Shown here: positions 34,913-55,509 of the stretch, piece after piece
Position numbering within the stretch: the stretch's first letter is position 1
Layout of the letters: the number at the start of each line of letters is the position of its first letter
Assembly (NCBI GenBank): GCA_009773185.1
Contig: WPIF01000016.1
Location: 1 to 61,138 of the forward strand
DNA length: 61,138 nt
Direction of reading: 5' to 3'
Source: Nitrospirota bacterium
GTDB taxonomy: Bacteria; Nitrospirota; Thermodesulfovibrionia; Thermodesulfovibrionales; UBA1546
Notes under the pieces: model-generated
The model's database searches: none
What the model saw: the letters and a program-made list of their open reading frames with translations, nothing else
Told to the model about the DNA's origin: nothing
Program-made: the position numbers and the translations under genes

Positions 34913-35075
34913 TTGTCTAAAAACTACCATTCCCACATAAAGTCGTCATTCTCGCGAAGGCGGGAATCCAGTCCCTTTTGAAGTTGTACTGGTTCCCCTT
35001 CTGCAAGGGGACAGCGTCTGGATCCCCCGGTCAAGCCGGAGGATGACAAATACTGAGTTTTTAGACAGGCTCTGT
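34913..35075. mobile_element. MITE-like element with terminal inverted repeats
   Basis: The ends TTTGTCTAAAAACT and AGTTTTTAGACAGGC are inverted copies. Inside are further paired segments (GTCATTCTCGCGAAGGCGGG and GGAATCCAG on the left; CTGGATCCCCCGG and TCAAGCCGGAGGATGAC on the right), a style of non-coding repeat seen in many bacterial genomes. About 160 bp, no open frame. It lies between pstS and the inserted plus-strand genes. Confidence 0.7.
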
Positions 35076-35195
35076 GTCCCTATTTCCTCAACCACTTAGG
35101 AAGAAGTACTTCCTGAAATCCGCGCTTTTCAAAAAATTGAAAATAGTGTAACTTATTATTGGTAATCAACTATGGGGAAAGTCGAGTTTTATCTG

Positions 35196-35305: not shown

Positions 35306-36265
35306 ATGAAAAGCATGACAAAAGTCTATATAGAAACGTCTGCAGCAAACTACTTCTTGAATAATCTCAATGGGGAAGGTGCAGAAGCAACGCGAAGGCT
35401 TCAGCTTTCAAAGGGCCGTCATTGGTTCATTTCTACAACTGTACTCTGGGAAGTCCTTCAAATCGTAGAAAGAAGAGACTTAGATGCATGTCTTTTTCTC
35501 GGATCATATCTGTTTCATGATCGGCTGCTCAAGTCTGCTGCAGAAATCGGAATTGACTACATTGAAAGAGGAATGCCAGATTACCTAGTTCTAGATTCGC
35601 CTTTTACCGATTCAACGCTTGGGCTTAGTTGGCAACGTGCCTGCAAGGACAAGTCCTACTCGTTCTTTGTGGACGACAAAGCATTCACAGAGGTAACTTC
35701 AGAGCTTAAGAGAATATCAAGGCACATTAGATATCTCGCAGGTGAGCGCGAGAATTACAAGCCTACTCTCGATGATAGCATTAGGGGTCTTGCTTCATTT
35801 CTTGATGAAATCTACGACAAGTATTTCTCGGATAACGTTCCTCCGTTGACCAACTGGCTAAGAAAAATTGCGTTGCTAGTCGTATTTCTCCAATTATGCC
35901 TTAGCCTTGACATTACCAGGGATGTTGTCGAGCAATATTGGCGAAAGACGACAATAGAAGACCCTTTTGAAAGACTTACCTATCTCATGGAGAAGTACGC
36001 TGCGATTGTCCGACAGGGGCCTTTCTGGAACATCGCTAATGCTATATTCATTCAGTCTGCTCGGTCCGGGCTTAGTAGTCGCGGCGCATTCCATGATGGG
36101 CTACATGCTATTTACTTGCCCTTCGTGGATATTTTCTTCACGAATGATGACCATTTTCGGTCTCTGAGGGACAAGTCATATAAAGAATTCAGAGAACTGC
36201 TTTACGATAAGATATTTCACTTAGATGAGGTCGAGCTCTTGAGAGTAGAACACAAGTTAATTTAA
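35306..36265 (+). CDS. PIN-like domain protein (cassette gene)
   Basis: A 319-residue protein. It opens with KVYIETSAANYFL, like the acidic-threonine start of PIN nucleases (with Glu instead of Asp), and ends with HDGLHAIYLPFVDIFFTNDDHF, like the last acidic strand of a PIN fold. Between them is a long helical region. Nuclease activity is possible but the family is not firmly known to me. Arginine codons AGA, CGT and CGC are mixed and the gene stands out from the purine-rich neighbours. Its TAA stop overlaps the attC-like site at 36260, as in integron cassettes. It lies on the plus strand inside a minus-strand phosphate locus. Confidence 0.7.
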   Translation: MKSMTKVYIETSAANYFLNNLNGEGAEATRRLQLSKGRHWFISTTVLWEVLQIVERRDLDACLFLGSYLFHDRLLKSAAEIGIDYIERGMPDYLVLDSPFTDSTLGLSWQRACKDKSYSFFVDDKAFTEVTSELKRISRHIRYLAGERENYKPTLDDSIRGLASFLDEIYDKYFSDNVPPLTNWLRKIALLVVFLQLCLSLDITRDVVEQYWRKTTIEDPFERLTYLMEKYAAIVRQGPFWNIANAIFIQSARSGLSSRGAFHDGLHAIYLPFVDIFFTNDDHFRSLRDKSYKEFRELLYDKIFHLDEVELLRVEHKLI

Positions 36266-36318
36266 CCACGCCGTCGAGAGGGTCGCTTAAAACCGCGCCC
36301 CTCACGGCGACGTTAGGC
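36260..36318 (+). other. Integron-type attC-like recombination site
   Basis: R'' ATTTAAC (36260-36266, fits RYYYAAC) and R' GTTAGGC (36312-36318, fits GTTRRRY) bracket inner arms CGCCGTCGAGAGGG and CCCCTCACGGCG that pair as CGCCGT/ACGGCG with an extrahelical base, then GAG-GGG/CCC-CTC. The middle (TCGCTTAAAACCGCG) is unpaired. Length is 59 bp, the classic size. It follows the PIN-like stop codon directly. No integrase gene is in the window. Confidence 0.6.
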
Positions 36319-36424
36319 TATCTCTTGCGAGCGTAGTCATAGAGCGCAATCCGAATAGCAGCTCACTTGCGGTAGAAACTCTACTTATAAATGGCTCGAA
36401 TTAACGAGAACGTTTCAATAATCA

Positions 36425-37327
36425 GTGGAAGGCTCGATAAGGTGTCAGGAATTGGAATCTAAACATCCTAAACATAACTGCTGCCACGTGACACTTCCGC
36501 TTCCTGATTTTTCAGGGTCTGCGGAGGACGACCAGTTTCGCTCACGATTCATTCAATGCCTCCTACACCAACCACCACCGCAGTGGCCGACGCAAATTGG
36601 TGAGGAGCCAATACCAAGAGTATTAGTCCAATACTGGCACGATCTCAATCACGTACCCGACGATGTTCAGGAGTGTCTCAACAGCTGGGAATCTCTTCGA
36701 AACCACGGCTTCAGGCGACTTATATTTGATGACGAGCGTGCCCGATCGTTCATAAGCAAACACTTTTCCGCAGAGCACGTCGAAGCGTTTGACCTCTGTT
36801 ACCATCCGGCAATGCGCTGTGATTACTTTCGACTTTGCTACATCTTCAGATACGGCGGTTTTTATGTAGACGCCGACGAGGTATATCAGGATACGGGATG
36901 TGAAGCTTTCTTCAATGACAACAAGCTCAAAATACGGCCTCTCTGCTATGACACTGCAACTGACGCAATGGTAAGAAATGAGATATTTCTGAAAGACACC
37001 AGCTACCCTTCGAGTCGAATTTTCTACGTCGCCAATGATCCGATCATAGGGCCGGCAGGACACGAACTAATACGATTAGCCATTGAGCGGTCCACTCGCA
37101 TTCTCCTTCTGCGTTCGGAGAGGCCAGAAATTCAATCGACTACAGGTCCCGGGAACCTATCTGCCAGTTTGGTAAACCATGCAATCAGAACCAAATTGGC
37201 ATGTAGAGAATGGGATTTCCTGATTCTACCGAACTGGAGGTATACCTCTGTCTGCCAGTGGTCTTTAAGCTATCGAAATGATGAGAGGAATTGGAGATTT
37301 TTGAATACTCCGCGATTTACAAGATGA
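36425..37327 (+). CDS. GT32-type glycosyltransferase
   Basis: A 300-residue sugar transferase of the OCH1/capsular type. IPRVLVQYWHDLNHVPDDV near 64-82, then MRCDYFRLCYIFRYGGFYVDADE, whose DAD is the metal and nucleotide-sugar DXD motif. GTG 36425 is the first start in frame; a later start is possible because no ribosome site is clear. Its stop overlaps the ATG of the next gene (ATGA), so the two are coupled. Donor and acceptor unknown. The 106 bases before it, after the attC-like site, hold nothing else recognised. Confidence 0.8.
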   Translation: MEGSIRCQELESKHPKHNCCHVTLPLPDFSGSAEDDQFRSRFIQCLLHQPPPQWPTQIGEEPIPRVLVQYWHDLNHVPDDVQECLNSWESLRNHGFRRLIFDDERARSFISKHFSAEHVEAFDLCYHPAMRCDYFRLCYIFRYGGFYVDADEVYQDTGCEAFFNDNKLKIRPLCYDTATDAMVRNEIFLKDTSYPSSRIFYVANDPIIGPAGHELIRLAIERSTRILLLRSERPEIQSTTGPGNLSASLVNHAIRTKLACREWDFLILPNWRYTSVCQWSLSYRNDERNWRFLNTPRFTR

Positions 37328-39627
37328 ATATTATCAAGAGTAACAGAATTATAATGAAGTTAATATTTTGGTTAAAAAGCTTGTCTAGGAGGATAAGCCC
37401 AAGAACCGAAATTAATATATTCGGACTCAAGCGAGATGGTGCGAACGATTGCATTAGACTAGTATACGTAATTAACCTTACTCGCCAGAAGAAACGATGG
37501 GAACAATTTGCAAAAGAGGCACGAATTCAAAAGATATCAGGTAAAAGAAACTTATTCGACTTCTGTGAACGAGTTGCAGCTGTGGACGGCAGTGCTATTA
37601 AGACTGATGACGTTATATCATCGGATATTGATAAAACATACAACCTGAAGGAACAATTCTATGTGGATCCGGACCCGCGCCTGATACACATAGTAAACAA
37701 TAACATTGTTATTAGTATGACACCGGAAGAGATTGCCGTTGCACAGTCACATCTTAAAGCATGGAACAAAATGGTTAATGAGAATATATCTTATGCATTA
37801 ATTCTCGAGGACGACGTATTCTTTGAGAATAATTTTGCAGAGCAAGCAAATTTAGTATGGCAAGAATTGCCGCAACAACGAGAAGACGGCTATCGATTTG
37901 ACATTCTTTATTTATCATACCGAGAAGTCGATCGAGGAGCAGAAAAGAATATCCATTCAATAAACCTGTTTCGTCCAGTTCGCGGTCTATGGTGGCTATC
38001 CGGTTATGTTCTTTCATATGGGGGTGCAATAAAGTTGCTTAATGCACTGCCAATTCGTGGGCCAGTCGATCTATGGATAAACCATCAGTTTAATAAGTTG
38101 GATGTCTTCGCAACTTCAATTTCAATAATCTCTCAGCGGTTGGATTGGAAATCAGACAACAAATATTCAATCCTGCCAGTGCTTTCTCAGGTTGGCATAC
38201 AATCTGATAAATCTCTTTTACTTCTTGAACGAAAGGTTGGAAGTAAACCAATATTCGCAATCAGCTCAGACGATGCTGAAAGAGCAAGTTTACAAATTGC
38301 TCTAAGCCTTCTTGGCTACAGATGCTGCAACTTGGTTAGTGATGAGTTTTTCGAAGATACAGCGAGATTGATCGATAACGCACAGCCACTACCTTTCGAT
38401 GCCTATATTGATGTGGCTGGTATTGTCAGTAGATATAAGCAACTGGAAGTCCAATATCCGGAAGCCGTCTTTATTCTTACTGCACGAAATCTGAACGCAG
38501 TTGATAATACAGTAGAAGCAATATCAGACATGAGCGCAAAGATCGCGGAGCGGCGCAAACATCATGGTGCCTTCCTGAACTATTTTAGTAATCGACCAGA
38601 AAAGTTATTGATCATTAACGGCTCTAACGTTGAGGGTTGGGACCGGCTTTGTAATTTCCTCGGATGTGATGTACCTGACGTTGCGTTTCCTAATATGGAT
38701 CCATTTCCGAAAATGGATAAGTTAAATATTAATGTAAGTGGCCAGGTTCCTATTAAGGTTGCCGATTGCGATCTTCTAGAACATGATGTTCATCCATGGA
38801 TAATGCCGGCTGCAAAACTATCTAATTTTGGTCAAACTGAAATAACTCGATATGGTACAAGAACAGGTTCGTTTACACGTTGTTACTCAGATAATTTCGA
38901 ATATATCAATGCTGCTTATTGGAAAATACTTGAAAACACCTTTCCTTCCAATCTTGCAAGATTCCAATCTGAGAATTTAAGTCTCTTGGATGAAGGTGGG
39001 ATTCGGATGATCTTACGAAAACAAAAATCAGGAAACCGTGATTACACTTCAGCGTCAATCGCAAGCAATGCGAAGTATCGTTACGGTCGCTTCGAAGTTG
39101 AACTGAAACCTGCTAAGGCAGAAGGAGTATTAACTGCATTTTTTCTCCACCGAAATGATCCCTGGCAAGAGATTGATCTTGAGTTTTTGGGCAAAGATAC
39201 AAGCCGAATTTTGGTCAACGTCTACTATAATCCTGGCGAAGAAGGTACCAACTACAACTATGGCAACCGAGGTACACCAGTCCTTATCAATCTTGGCTTC
39301 GATGCGGCTGATAACTTCCATCGTTATGCGATTGAGTGGGAATCTGACGAGATTCGCTGGTTTGTTGATGATGAATTAGTACATGTAAGAGGCACATGGG
39401 AACCTACACCTATACCTGATCTACCTATGCAATTCCATATTAACACATGGCCTTCACGTTCTGAGGATTTAGCAGGAAGATTGAATTCCCAGCAACTACC
39501 AATAAATAGTGATATACGATCATTTGTACTTTCAGCGTGGATGTCGCCTAACCTCAGCTGCAACGATCACTACGACTATTCCAACAACATGAGCGTCCAC
39601 ATCGACTCGCCAAAAAGCGGCGCGTGA
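37324..39627 (+). CDS. Fusion protein: GT25 glycosyltransferase / sulfotransferase-like / GH16 glycosidase
   Basis: A 767-residue three-part protein. About 20-300 is a GT25 (LPS/collagen-type) transferase: VYVINLTRQKKRW, TPEEIAVAQSHLKAW and LEDDVFFENNF with Glu162-Asp163-Asp164. About 305-465 resembles a sulfotransferase C-half (YPEAVFILTARN, WDRLCNFLGCDVPDVAFP), but the N-terminal PAPS loop (usually PRSGTTSLQ) reads SSDDAERASLQ and looks degenerate. About 500-755 is a GH16 beta-jelly-roll with catalytic EIDLE (Glu616, Asp618, Glu620), RYGRFEVELKP before it and WFVDDELVH after it. There is no signal peptide, so the GH16 part may work in the cytoplasm or as a transglycosylase. ATG 37324 is chosen for its ATGA overlap with the GT32 gene. 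The gene ends nine bases from the phoR stop. Confidence 0.8.
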   Translation: MNIIKSNRIIMKLIFWLKSLSRRISPRTEINIFGLKRDGANDCIRLVYVINLTRQKKRWEQFAKEARIQKISGKRNLFDFCERVAAVDGSAIKTDDVISSDIDKTYNLKEQFYVDPDPRLIHIVNNNIVISMTPEEIAVAQSHLKAWNKMVNENISYALILEDDVFFENNFAEQANLVWQELPQQREDGYRFDILYLSYREVDRGAEKNIHSINLFRPVRGLWWLSGYVLSYGGAIKLLNALPIRGPVDLWINHQFNKLDVFATSISIISQRLDWKSDNKYSILPVLSQVGIQSDKSLLLLERKVGSKPIFAISSDDAERASLQIALSLLGYRCCNLVSDEFFEDTARLIDNAQPLPFDAYIDVAGIVSRYKQLEVQYPEAVFILTARNLNAVDNTVEAISDMSAKIAERRKHHGAFLNYFSNRPEKLLIINGSNVEGWDRLCNFLGCDVPDVAFPNMDPFPKMDKLNINVSGQVPIKVADCDLLEHDVHPWIMPAAKLSNFGQTEITRYGTRTGSFTRCYSDNFEYINAAYWKILENTFPSNLARFQSENLSLLDEGGIRMILRKQKSGNRDYTSASIASNAKYRYGRFEVELKPAKAEGVLTAFFLHRNDPWQEIDLEFLGKDTSRILVNVYYNPGEEGTNYNYGNRGTPVLINLGFDAADNFHRYAIEWESDEIRWFVDDELVHVRGTWEPTPIPDLPMQFHINTWPSRSEDLAGRLNSQQLPINSDIRSFVLSAWMSPNLSCNDHYDYSNNMSVHIDSPKSGA

Positions 39628-39635
39628 CCCGCGTG

Positions 39636-41369
39636 TTACAGGAAGATTTTTATTTTCGTGCCTTTGCCAGAAACGCTCTCTATATGCATGTTCCATCCAT
39701 GCGCTTTCACAAGGTGTTTGACTATTGCAAGCCCGAGCCCTGTTCCGCCCATTTTTCTTGAGCGGGCAGGGTCTACCCTGTAGAATCTCTCTCCCAGTCT
39801 TGGAAGATGCTTTACCGTGATTCCAATGCCGGTGTCTTCAACAAATAAACATGGTTTGCTGTCTTCTTCGCCTATGCCGATGGTCACACCTCCGCTCTCA
39901 GTGAATTTTATTGCATTATCCACGAGGTTGGTAAATATCTGGATAAGCCTTTCCTTATCAGCAGAGAGTTTCCTGAATTCTGGTTTTATAGTTGTTTTCA
40001 GGTAAAGGTTCTTTTCGTCTGCCCTGCCCTTAAGGATGGTTAATACATTTTCAAAGACATCTTCAGCATCTATTACGGATTTTTGAACTTTGATGACGCC
40101 CAGTTCTATTTTCGAGATGGTCATAAGGTCATCCACAAGGCTGTCTATGCGCTCGCTGTTGGATTTAATCGTATGAAGGAATTTAACTGCATTTTCCTTA
40201 TCGTCAAGCGCGCCTTCCAGCAGAGTATCTGCAAAACCCTTGATTGCAGTGATAGGCGTCTTAATCTCATGCGAGACATTTGCAACAAAATCCTTTCTCA
40301 TTTGTTCCAGTTTTTTGAGTTGTGTGATGTCATGGAATACGGCAACAAAACCTGCGAGCTCTCTCTCTCTATAAAACAGAGGAGAGACCCTTACTACAAC
40401 ATGCCTCTCTTCAGGGTAGTCGAGCCCGAACTCGGCTATGCCCGGCAAGAGGTTTTTACGCACGCTGTCCATCAAAGAAAAAAAATCATGGTTCCTGACA
40501 ACCTCAATAAAAGGTTTCCCTCTTACAGGGGTGTCTCCAAAGAATTTTCTTGAGACAGCGCTTGAGAGGAGAATAATATCTCTGGGGTCTATTATTAAAA
40601 GCGCATCCGGTATGCTCCGCAGAATTACACTAAGGCGGTTTTTTTCTTCCTCATTTTTAGCTATCATGTCCTGAAGCTTTTCAGACATTGCAGTAAGATT
40701 TCCCGCAATTTCGTCGAATTCCCCGGCATTTTGCAGAAAGAGCCTCTTGTCTATCTCTCCCCTGGACAATGACCTCGAGAAATCCGTTATCTGCTTAAGA
40801 AGCCTTCTCAGGTGGTCTGTCTGCCAGACTGAAAATATCCATGTCGCCAGCAGGACTATGAGAACAACAAGGCTAATCTTCATCCTGAGAAGATTAATCG
40901 AACTATCAACATCTTTCAACGGTACCGCCATCCTTATAAAGCCGGTCGCCTTTCCATTCTGTAAAATATTTTTCGCAATATAAAGAAAATTATGTTTCAG
41001 AGTATCGCTGTGCCGTATTGCCATGCCAGTATCAAAAAGAAGTGACTGCTCTACCTCTGTCCTGTGTAAGTGGTTATCCATAAGAGCAGAATCGGTATCC
41101 GAGTCGCCTATTACCTTCCCGTCATTTGCAATAATTGTCACACGCGCATTGGTATCTTTTTTCAATTGCCTGCAGAGGCCGTCCAGATTGGTTTGCCTGA
41201 AAGATATGCTTTTCGAGATGAGGCTTATTTGGACAGCAAGATTTTTCTTAAGATTATCTATATAATTTTCTCTGACCGCGGATGTGATATATATCTCGAC
41301 AAATAGAACCGCCAGCAATATCATGACGGCGTACAGTATAAAAATTCGCCTAAAGATGCCGGATTTCAT
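39636..41369 (-). CDS. phoR: Phosphate regulon sensor histidine kinase PhoR-like
   Basis: A 577-residue membrane kinase: TM1 (about 8-28), periplasmic sensor, TM2 (about 160-182), HAMP, PAS (about 235-330), HisKA with FVANVSHEIKTPITAIKGF and an HATPase with N box NLVDNAIKF and MGGTGLGLAIVKH. It overlaps phoB by four bases (ATGA). Context with phoB and the pst operon supports a phosphate role. The inserted plus-strand genes lie directly beyond its 3' end. Confidence 0.92.
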   Translation of the reverse strand: MKSGIFRRIFILYAVMILLAVLFVEIYITSAVRENYIDNLKKNLAVQISLISKSISFRQTNLDGLCRQLKKDTNARVTIIANDGKVIGDSDTDSALMDNHLHRTEVEQSLLFDTGMAIRHSDTLKHNFLYIAKNILQNGKATGFIRMAVPLKDVDSSINLLRMKISLVVLIVLLATWIFSVWQTDHLRRLLKQITDFSRSLSRGEIDKRLFLQNAGEFDEIAGNLTAMSEKLQDMIAKNEEEKNRLSVILRSIPDALLIIDPRDIILLSSAVSRKFFGDTPVRGKPFIEVVRNHDFFSLMDSVRKNLLPGIAEFGLDYPEERHVVVRVSPLFYRERELAGFVAVFHDITQLKKLEQMRKDFVANVSHEIKTPITAIKGFADTLLEGALDDKENAVKFLHTIKSNSERIDSLVDDLMTISKIELGVIKVQKSVIDAEDVFENVLTILKGRADEKNLYLKTTIKPEFRKLSADKERLIQIFTNLVDNAIKFTESGGVTIGIGEEDSKPCLFVEDTGIGITVKHLPRLGERFYRVDPARSRKMGGTGLGLAIVKHLVKAHGWNMHIESVSGKGTKIKIFL

Positions 41370-54129: not shown

Positions 54130-55509
54130 TTAGAAGCTGAGTGTGAGGCCGTGAACAGCCTGTGTGATAGGCTTGTCATTGGCTACTGTAGTCCCTGTCG
54201 CTGTGTTAGTTGTCCACCATCCGCCTGTATCAAGATAACCTGCCATAATGAAGTATGTAAGGTTCTTGTCAAGCTTATAGCTTATCTTCAGGTCTGTCTC
54301 TGTGCCAATCCTCTTTGAGTTAGGAGCTCTTTCTGTTACTGTTCCGTTTCCTAATGGCTCAGTGGCCCTGAGAACAAAATAGTCTAAAGATGCTGACAGG
54401 TCTTTTGTCGGGTTGATATCAACTCCTGCCCTGTAATATGTTACGCCATTCAGACCTGTTGAACGGGCGCCGCCCGGTGTGGTTGTTGTATATTCAAAAA
54501 TCTGTGTATAGTGGATATCATTACCGAGTGTAGTCTGGAATGCCTCGTTATCGCCATCGTTGGTAACGTTATCGCCGGAACCGAATGCATACTCACCCCT
54601 TATTGTTACAACAGGGGCAGGTGTAACGCCAAGACCTAACACATAACCATATCCCTTGAATCTGTCAGGAAAACCACCGGCATCAGCGCCATCAGGTGCA
54701 TCGCCAAACTGTTTGTCAAACTCTGCCTTATAAGAAATGATTCCTGCCTTGCCGCTTGCATGAAGGCCTATGTTCTGCAGGTTTGCAAGTACAGCGCCGG
54801 TCTGGTCATCAACATAAGTATAGTTAACACCGAAGGTGTTGGTGCCTACCTTGTATGTAGCAAGCGCTACATAACCATTAATGTCATTTGATGTTCCGGA
54901 TGTCTGGGCTGCTGTGGAACCTTCAACAAATTTTGTTGTAAGGAGCCCGACATGAAGCTGTTTTGTAGGGTCCATAAAGAACACTATTGCGTCATCGCCG
55001 AACTTTGTGTGATCCAGGAACTGCTTTTCACCAAGTGCCAAAGGCATATGGCCGATCTTGAGTCCTGCCGGAATTCCAAGGCCTGTGCCCTTATACAGAA
55101 TCCATGCCTCAAGGAAATCAAGATCAGAATATCCTGTTCCTGAAGCTTTCTGGTTTAAAGAGCCCCATGTATATGTGTCAGATATCTGGCTGCTGCCGGA
55201 ATTTGACTCGAGGTGAATAAAGCCGCTGGTGTTTTTGCTGGTTTCAATAGCGAGGCTGAGCCTTACCCTCTGGTCATACCATGTCTGGGTGTTCGAATCA
55301 CTTGGGACTGACTGCGCCCTTCTGATTCCTGAGGCATTCTTTAAATACCAGCCTCTTACCCTTAACTCACCGCCCATTGTTACCTGGGTTGTGCCCTTTG
55401 CTACTATTGCCTGAGTCTCTGAAGGAATCTCAGAATGAATGGCAAAGGCACTGGCTGTAAAACCGAGAATGAACAACATGCCTAAGACTAATACTAAATA
55501 TTTTTTCAC
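54130..55509 (-). CDS. Outer-membrane porin-like beta-barrel protein
   Basis: A 459-residue secreted protein: signal peptide about 1-23 (LVLVLGMLFILGFTASAFA), a short helix, then alternating amphipathic strands with aromatic girdles (GGELRVRGWYLKN, GYGYVLGLGVTPAPVV, TDLKISYKLDKNLTYFIMAGY) and a C-terminal Phe (HGLTLSF) as needed by the BAM complex. Ion or solute porin; specificity unknown. Start is GTG 55509 with AAGGAGG seven bases upstream. Confidence 0.85.
   Translation of the reverse strand: MKKYLVLVLGMLFILGFTASAFAIHSEIPSETQAIVAKGTTQVTMGGELRVRGWYLKNASGIRRAQSVPSDSNTQTWYDQRVRLSLAIETSKNTSGFIHLESNSGSSQISDTYTWGSLNQKASGTGYSDLDFLEAWILYKGTGLGIPAGLKIGHMPLALGEKQFLDHTKFGDDAIVFFMDPTKQLHVGLLTTKFVEGSTAAQTSGTSNDINGYVALATYKVGTNTFGVNYTYVDDQTGAVLANLQNIGLHASGKAGIISYKAEFDKQFGDAPDGADAGGFPDRFKGYGYVLGLGVTPAPVVTIRGEYAFGSGDNVTNDGDNEAFQTTLGNDIHYTQIFEYTTTTPGGARSTGLNGVTYYRAGVDINPTKDLSASLDYFVLRATEPLGNGTVTERAPNSKRIGTETDLKISYKLDKNLTYFIMAGYLDTGGWWTTNTATGTTVANDKPITQAVHGLTLSF

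Follow-up and report, generated by a model that had tools for sequence, protein, structure and literature searches.

A mobile gene module built around a three-domain GT25, sulfotransferase-fold and GH16 protein and its possible role in anti-phage defence

The DNA analysed here (the window) is the 61,138-nucleotide contig WPIF01000016.1 of a Nitrospirota bacterium (assembly GCA_009773185.1). Gene A of this contig encodes a protein in which a glycosyltransferase of family GT25, a sulfotransferase-like domain and a glycoside hydrolase of family GH16 follow one another. It is preceded by gene B, encoding a GT32-type glycosyltransferase, and the two genes are translationally coupled by an ATGA overlap, where the start codon of A shares bases with the stop codon of B. 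The pair was studied as a candidate mobile module of carbohydrate-active enzymes with a putative protective role against phages and other mobile elements. The features of the locus are summarized in Table 1.

Table 1. Features at the gene A locus, with positions in the window
Feature	Position	Strand	Evidence
Gene A, GT25 / sulfotransferase-like / GH16, 767 aa	37324..39627	+	Open frame, Pfam, AlphaFold2
GT25 domain, residues 47-250	37462..38073	+	PF01755 E 4e-18; 66 bits against a cut-off of 24
GT25 acidic motif E162-D163-D164	37807-37815	+	EDD in 84/84 homologues
Degenerate shortened Sulfotransfer_4-like domain, residues about 305-460	38236..38703	+	PF17784 partial match; fold match
Lost PAPS loop	38257-38289	+	SSDDAERASL in gene A; GxxGSGLSSL in most relatives
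GH16 lichenase-like domain, residues 518-740	38875..39543	+	PF00722 E 1e-33 at residues 559-715
GH16 catalytic E616-I-D-L-E620	39169-39183	+	E.D.E in 84/84 homologues
Gene B, GT32-type glycosyltransferase, DxD as YVDADE	36425..37327	+	PF04488 E 2e-7; 31.8 bits against 23
Transfer unit B + A, 3.3 kb (blastn boundaries)	36311..39628	+	93.8% DNA identity to G186 / L014 9503-12818
attC-like site, 59 bp, ATTTAAC ... GTTAGGC, imperfect hairpin	36260..36318	+	Bottom-strand DNA fold -17.5 kcal/mol
Preceding cassette-like open reading frame, 319 aa	35306..36265	+	PF01850 (PIN) E 0.04, below cut-off

The three-domain protein

The start of gene A was supported by a near-invariant M1 and N2 among 73 homologues, and its three Pfam matches each exceeded the curated cut-off. 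The full-length AlphaFold2 model, built on 73 sequences, had a mean predicted local distance difference test (pLDDT) score of 83.9. An earlier note on this DNA had described a single three-domain protein with intact GT25 and GH16 motifs, a sulfotransferase-like middle lacking a normal loop for 3'-phosphoadenosine 5'-phosphosulfate (PAPS) and no signal peptide. The open frame, the domain matches, the homologue alignments and the models bear out each of these points, and structure prediction of the middle and C-terminal parts gave sulfotransferase and lichenase folds.

The GH16 residues 518-739 superposed on lichenases with Z 28 and a root-mean-square deviation (rmsd) of 1.5-1.9 over about 205 residues, and the beta-jelly-roll fold was recovered with a template modelling score of 0.87-0.90 of the target against lichenase chains. 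The fold match of the full-length model speaks for the GH16 part only, as GH16 proteins filled the list of matches. In sequence comparison the EIDLE of gene A lined up with the lichenase WDEIDIEFLGKDT. The score of the domain, 136 bits, lies far below the NCBIfam equivalog cut-offs (300 bits), and the ExoK model matched gene A at E 1.5e-26, also under its cut-off. GH16 enzymes are of the retaining type. The jelly-roll fold and the E-I-D-x-E triad are shared with the lichenases and beta-glucanases Bacillus BglS, 1gbg and 3o5s; unlike these, the gene A domain has no signal peptide and is fused behind a GT25 domain and a sulfotransferase fold. No signal peptide or transmembrane segment was found in the gene A protein or in the 84 family members, and a secreted GH16 enzyme was rejected on this ground; the gene A protein also has no hydrophobic N-terminal stretch.

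The Sulfotransfer_4 match of the middle domain (residues 412-458, E 6e-10) covered the C-terminal portion of the Pfam profile only, and a profile of the domain itself picked up sulfotransferase sequences, relative to which a large internal part is deleted. Modelled alone, the domain gave a moderate model (pLDDT 74) whose best fold match was SgdX2 (Z 10.5, rmsd 3.8 over 139 residues); the top 20 matches were all sulfotransferases. Matches to sulfotransferases ranged from Z 8.6 to 10.5 and outranked unrelated P-loop kinases. The fold (Z 9-10.5) and the C-terminal motif are common to SgdX2, Cpz8 and a Schistosoma sulfotransferase, and unlike these Sulfotransfer_4 enzymes the middle domain is internally deleted and has lost the PAPS loop. 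As the 5'-phosphosulfate-binding loop expected near the first strand is absent, gene A was not classed as a PAPS-dependent sulfotransferase, and an active sulfotransferase was rejected for the window copy. Across the family a recognisable loop is kept in 60 of 84 members and gone in 24, and the mean pairwise identity is 55% for GH16, 52% for GT25 and 41% for the middle domain. The simplest inference is that the GT25 and GH16 catalytic domains are under strong selection. Because the catalytic motifs persist in all 84 proteins but the PAPS loop in only 60, the sulfotransferase fold is probably now mostly a structural or binding domain of a scaffold-like kind.

Family, partner genes and the products they might make

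The scan of 84,980 species genomes revealed 154 relatives, of which 80 were retained. The full-length relatives are mostly 33-48% identical, come from at least 80 species in 17 or more phyla, and are named in public annotation at best 'family 16 glycosylhydrolase'. A unique or chance fusion was rejected with these 80 or more full-length relatives of the same architecture in hand; that the gene is a chance fusion or an annotation artefact without function has next to no probability, being refuted by the conservation of full-length architecture and invariant catalytic residues in 84 proteins of at least 17 phyla.

Clustering of the genes within 10 kb placed gene A at 87 loci, the GT32 gene (B) at 81 and a carbamoyltransferase gene (C) at 52, and a profile search lifted these partner counts to 82 for B and 53 for C. 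The GT32 gene lies 5' of gene A at 82 of the 87 loci, and three of the five loci without it are truncated by contig ends. The gene orders BAC, BA, CBA and C'BA show constant partners in shuffled order, the protein identities co-vary (r = 0.90 for A and B, r = 0.72 for A and C), and the DxD residues D149 and D151 of B are invariant in 80 of 80 homologues. The linkage and the co-variation lend support to the suggestion, made in the earlier note, of a functional unit with the coupled GT32 gene. The note's further idea, that such a unit might build glycans and trim or transglycosylate them, would agree with the invariant catalytic residues. Within 10 kb of the 87 loci no dedicated partner other than B and C recurs, barring common two-component regulators and recombinases. 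By its predicted gene content the module is two or three genes, B and A plus an O-carbamoyltransferase C in about 60% of copies. Gene C was not found in the window genome, in a search run without a positive control.

The enzyme families bring to mind the modification of a lipopolysaccharide (LPS), capsule or exopolysaccharide side chain by B and A, with or without C, by which phage receptors or serotype would be altered. GT25 proteins are classically LPS galactosyltransferases, as the Pfam name says, GH16 includes the exopolysaccharide depolymerase ExoK, whose model matched below its cut-off, and a change of receptor would also account for a location on mobile elements. The explanation is nevertheless doubtful, since the whole family lacks export signals and membrane segments, the hosts have very different envelopes (Streptomyces, Acidimicrobiaceae and Chloroflexi among them), and no flippase, polymerase or further glycosyltransferase recurs within 10 kb of the 87 loci, for which reason a polysaccharide operon was also rejected. 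The GT25 part matched procollagen galactosyltransferase 1 in sequence (E 1.5e-7) and shares with that enzyme and with the LgtB-type LPS enzymes the Pfam GT25 match and the EDD motif; unlike the LgtB-type enzymes, the gene A protein has three domains, is predicted to be cytosolic and is encoded outside any LPS operon.

Partner C holds both carbamoyltransferase domains, as do the O-carbamoyltransferases TobZ, GdmN and NovN, and its closest solved relatives are the antibiotic-tailoring enzymes GdmN, TobZ and the novobiocin enzyme. This kinship, together with the natural-product sulfotransferases SgdX2 and Cpz8 among the nearest folds of the middle domain, would suit a minimal biosynthetic cluster in which a carbamoylated oligosaccharide or glycoside is made as a toxin, an antibiotic or a chemical defence. 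Such a cluster is unlikely, as scaffold-making, export and self-resistance genes do not recur within 10 kb of the 87 loci and about 40% of the copies have no C. Unlike the loci of TobZ, GdmN and NovN, those of the module C have no antibiotic scaffold genes nearby.

Two groups of relatives stood out within the family. Near-identical module proteins were found across phyla or classes in L056/L059 (Fusobacteriaceae bin and Aliarcobacter), L048/L085 (Haliea and Cupriavidus) and L045/L082 (Methylomirabilota bin and Burkholderiaceae), and reflect either recent transfer or mis-binned contigs. A divergent subclade (L079, L083, L086, L088, L090, L091 and L094; hosts Yersinia, Ensifer, Planctomycetaceae, Acidimicrobiaceae, Brevifollis, Sphingomonas and Pleomorphomonas) has lost the middle-domain loop throughout, has mostly the C-B-A order and could be a second subtype.

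Transfer of the gene pair and its boundaries

The closest relative of the window protein is 95% identical and belongs to a distant family of the same class, and the other genomes searched from the genus, family or order of the window organism yielded no full-length relative. The 93.8% identical DNA copy of the B and A unit lies at another chromosomal site, beside pth and an L25 ribosomal protein gene, and the window copy lies between pst and pho genes. In the tree of 78 proteins the 17 phyla are interleaved; the number of label changes is 28, where 16 would be the fewest possible. A tblastn search of plasmids gave eight records at 80% cover or more (Klebsiella, Citrobacter, four Aliarcobacter, Rhizorhabdus and Sphingobium) and a weaker match, at 68% cover, on a Rhizobium leguminosarum plasmid. 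In Escherichia coli the module was found in 4 of 5,426 genomes, on an integrative and conjugative element (ICE); a two-gene E. coli copy occupies NZ_AP021893.1 1836563-1839574. These results indicate that the gene pair B and A moves as a unit, horizontally and often.

The 5' boundary of the unit resembles that of an integron cassette. The DNA identity with the distant copy opens at the attC core GTTAGGC (G|TTRRRY), at the end of the preceding open reading frame. The spacing RYYYAAC...GTTRRRY occurs three times in the whole window, and the site at 36260..36318 is the only one between 33 and 41 kb. At the 3' side of the unit (39546-39640) no attC-type hairpin was found, the genome has no second copy of the attC, and no integron integrase match over the cut-off was obtained in it. 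An integrase-like remainder was seen, a 42-residue C-terminal IntI-like piece (L099; contig C41 of G000, about 54568-54687; HKHVETTMVYTHVLRDMKNAPQSPLDSL), and suggests that the genome once had an integron. A full integron cassette was rejected, as the 5' boundary fits and the 3' attC does not and an intact integrase was not found; with no foldable 3' attC and only an integrase fragment, the unit is called cassette-like.

Defence-gene setting and interpretation

The PADLOC scan covered two samples of 150 near neighbours of the module; as a control, 147 genes were taken from randomly chosen regions in 20 of the module-bearing genomes. Strict matches among the neighbours included GajA, GajB, HerA, DUF4297, BilC, BilD, LmuB, HamA and DpdF, along with MTase_II, bSEFIR, CARF-RtcR and a number of PDC candidates. 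Counted conservatively by hand, defence genes made up about 20 of the 300 neighbours, and none of the 147 control genes matched below 1e-31, the control regions giving weak mad2/mad3 matches only. The Fisher test gave p 0.0003 for 20 against 0, and 0.026 when the weak control matches were counted as 3. The counts were taken from the stricter runs, those at 1e-15 being inflated by overlapping GajA/GajB models, and five AAA/UvrD-like proteins had been taken out of the second sample beforehand, lowering its count. Annotated records showed the module, in separate cases, near Lit and Shedu, near an Abi gene, near ubiquitin-like and RES/Xre genes and near DUF262 genes, and the E. coli ICE copy has ABC-three-component genes with ArdC nearby and metabolic genes close too. 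No PADLOC model matched A or B, the best being a spurious Cas6 at E 0.045, and a known defence system was rejected accordingly.

An alignment-based search gave six viral contigs (a narrow scan with the window protein alone as query gave none), of which L128-L130 were taken up, the others being partial. On an IMG/VR contig the module, in the order B-A-C, comes after genes for a P2-type terminase, a DNA methyltransferase and a portal protein; the sequence stops behind C and does not reach the gpA side. The cos-proximal region between gpA and the portal gene gpQ is an anti-phage hotspot in which P2 carries old and tin (Rousset et al., PMC9122126). Judged from its gene order, the P2-like prophage copy sits at the gpQ side of this hotspot. 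On a second viral contig the module adjoins GajA and GajB (Gabija) as well as PDC-S53; a Lit-like gene is present on a third. The module has genomic niches in common with the hotspot systems old and tin and with Gabija; unlike the systems of PADLOC (nucleases, ATPases, NADases) it consists of carbohydrate enzymes. As a separate observation, a prophage copy of A (L128 9947-12214) matched PHROG 2835, a phage 'glucosyltransferase' of the moron category, at E 8e-10, which shows that GT25-related domains occur in phages.

The best explanation of the data is that gene A is the core of an undescribed, mobile and cytosolic module that would write and edit glycans and would most likely act against phages or other mobile elements; a probability of roughly 50% was assigned to it. 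It is read from sequence, namely the composition of the module, the conserved linkage, the intact catalytic residues, the loss of the PAPS loop, the lack of an export signal, the frequent transfer and the defence-gene setting. Several points weigh against it. The enrichment figures are family-level lower bounds with no per-protein listing, the neighbours were counted by hand, and the loci are partly non-independent. Many phylum labels in the tree were taken from titles of metagenome-assembled genomes. Adjacency to defence genes fits any cargo of mobile elements as well, and the window module itself does not adjoin any known defence gene.

A rival reading is a metabolic or stress function, such as an intracellular reserve glycan, riding on mobile elements that also bear defence genes. 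The phosphate-starvation genes (pst, phoRB) on either side of the window copy and the metabolic genes near the E. coli ICE copy agree with such cargo. It is held to be very unlikely, as defence genes are over-represented in comparison with the same genomes and the 93.8% identical copy beside pth and the L25 gene shows that the pho context is not conserved.

In the anti-phage reading the module would act in the cytoplasm. B would attach the first part of a small glycan to an acceptor inside the cell, the GT25 domain would lengthen it and C, where encoded, would carbamoylate it, after which the GH16 domain may trim the glycan or pass it to a final acceptor. The sulfotransferase fold would hold the two catalytic domains together or bind a partner, and the genomic context suggests that the module would protect against phages or other mobile elements. 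A more specific version is offered tentatively: on infection, GT32 and GT25 might attach a glycan, often a carbamoylated one, to a target in the cell, for instance a protein of the phage or of translation, or a small molecule, and GH16 might release, transfer or limit the mark.

No description of the domain order or of the module was found in the full text of 5.39 million open papers; subscription journals, preprints and later defence catalogues lay outside the scope of the search. The earlier note had stated that no described protein was known to it with this domain order, and had given the existence of many known proteins of the same architecture as a finding that would refute its view. The statement holds for the papers searched, where none is described, and not for the databases, where undescribed relatives are many. 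Its picture was incomplete as well, for the widespread family, the frequent carbamoyltransferase, the horizontal mobility and the phage-defence setting had not been seen. As far as searched, what is new is the combination, the dead middle domain and the habit of lying in defence islands; each enzyme family is well known. Known phage-defence systems work chiefly through nucleases, ATPases, NADases, toxins and signalling nucleotides. If the anti-phage reading is true, the module would represent a new kind of chemistry for bacterial immunity, a carbohydrate-active-enzyme immune module in at least 17 phyla. Whatever its purpose, it is an overlooked enzyme family found on conjugative plasmids as well as an ICE of E. 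coli, and the two-gene versions of E. coli and Klebsiella make its function directly testable.

Some minor features were also recorded. The 319-residue open reading frame before the module is not conserved with it, ends in the well-formed attC and has no relatives in the plasmid collection; it is possibly an orphan cassette gene. An interspersed inverted-repeat element lies at 34925-35080 ('tcattctcgcgaaggcgggaatcc...') and is partly matched at 13 other places in the genome. On the conjugative Citrobacter freundii IncC plasmid pCf164_LMB-1 (L008 / NZ_MH475146.1) the module and arr-3 are separated by about 8 kb that includes IS21 elements, and the GT32 region of this plasmid holds an open reading frame though the record lists no coding sequence there.

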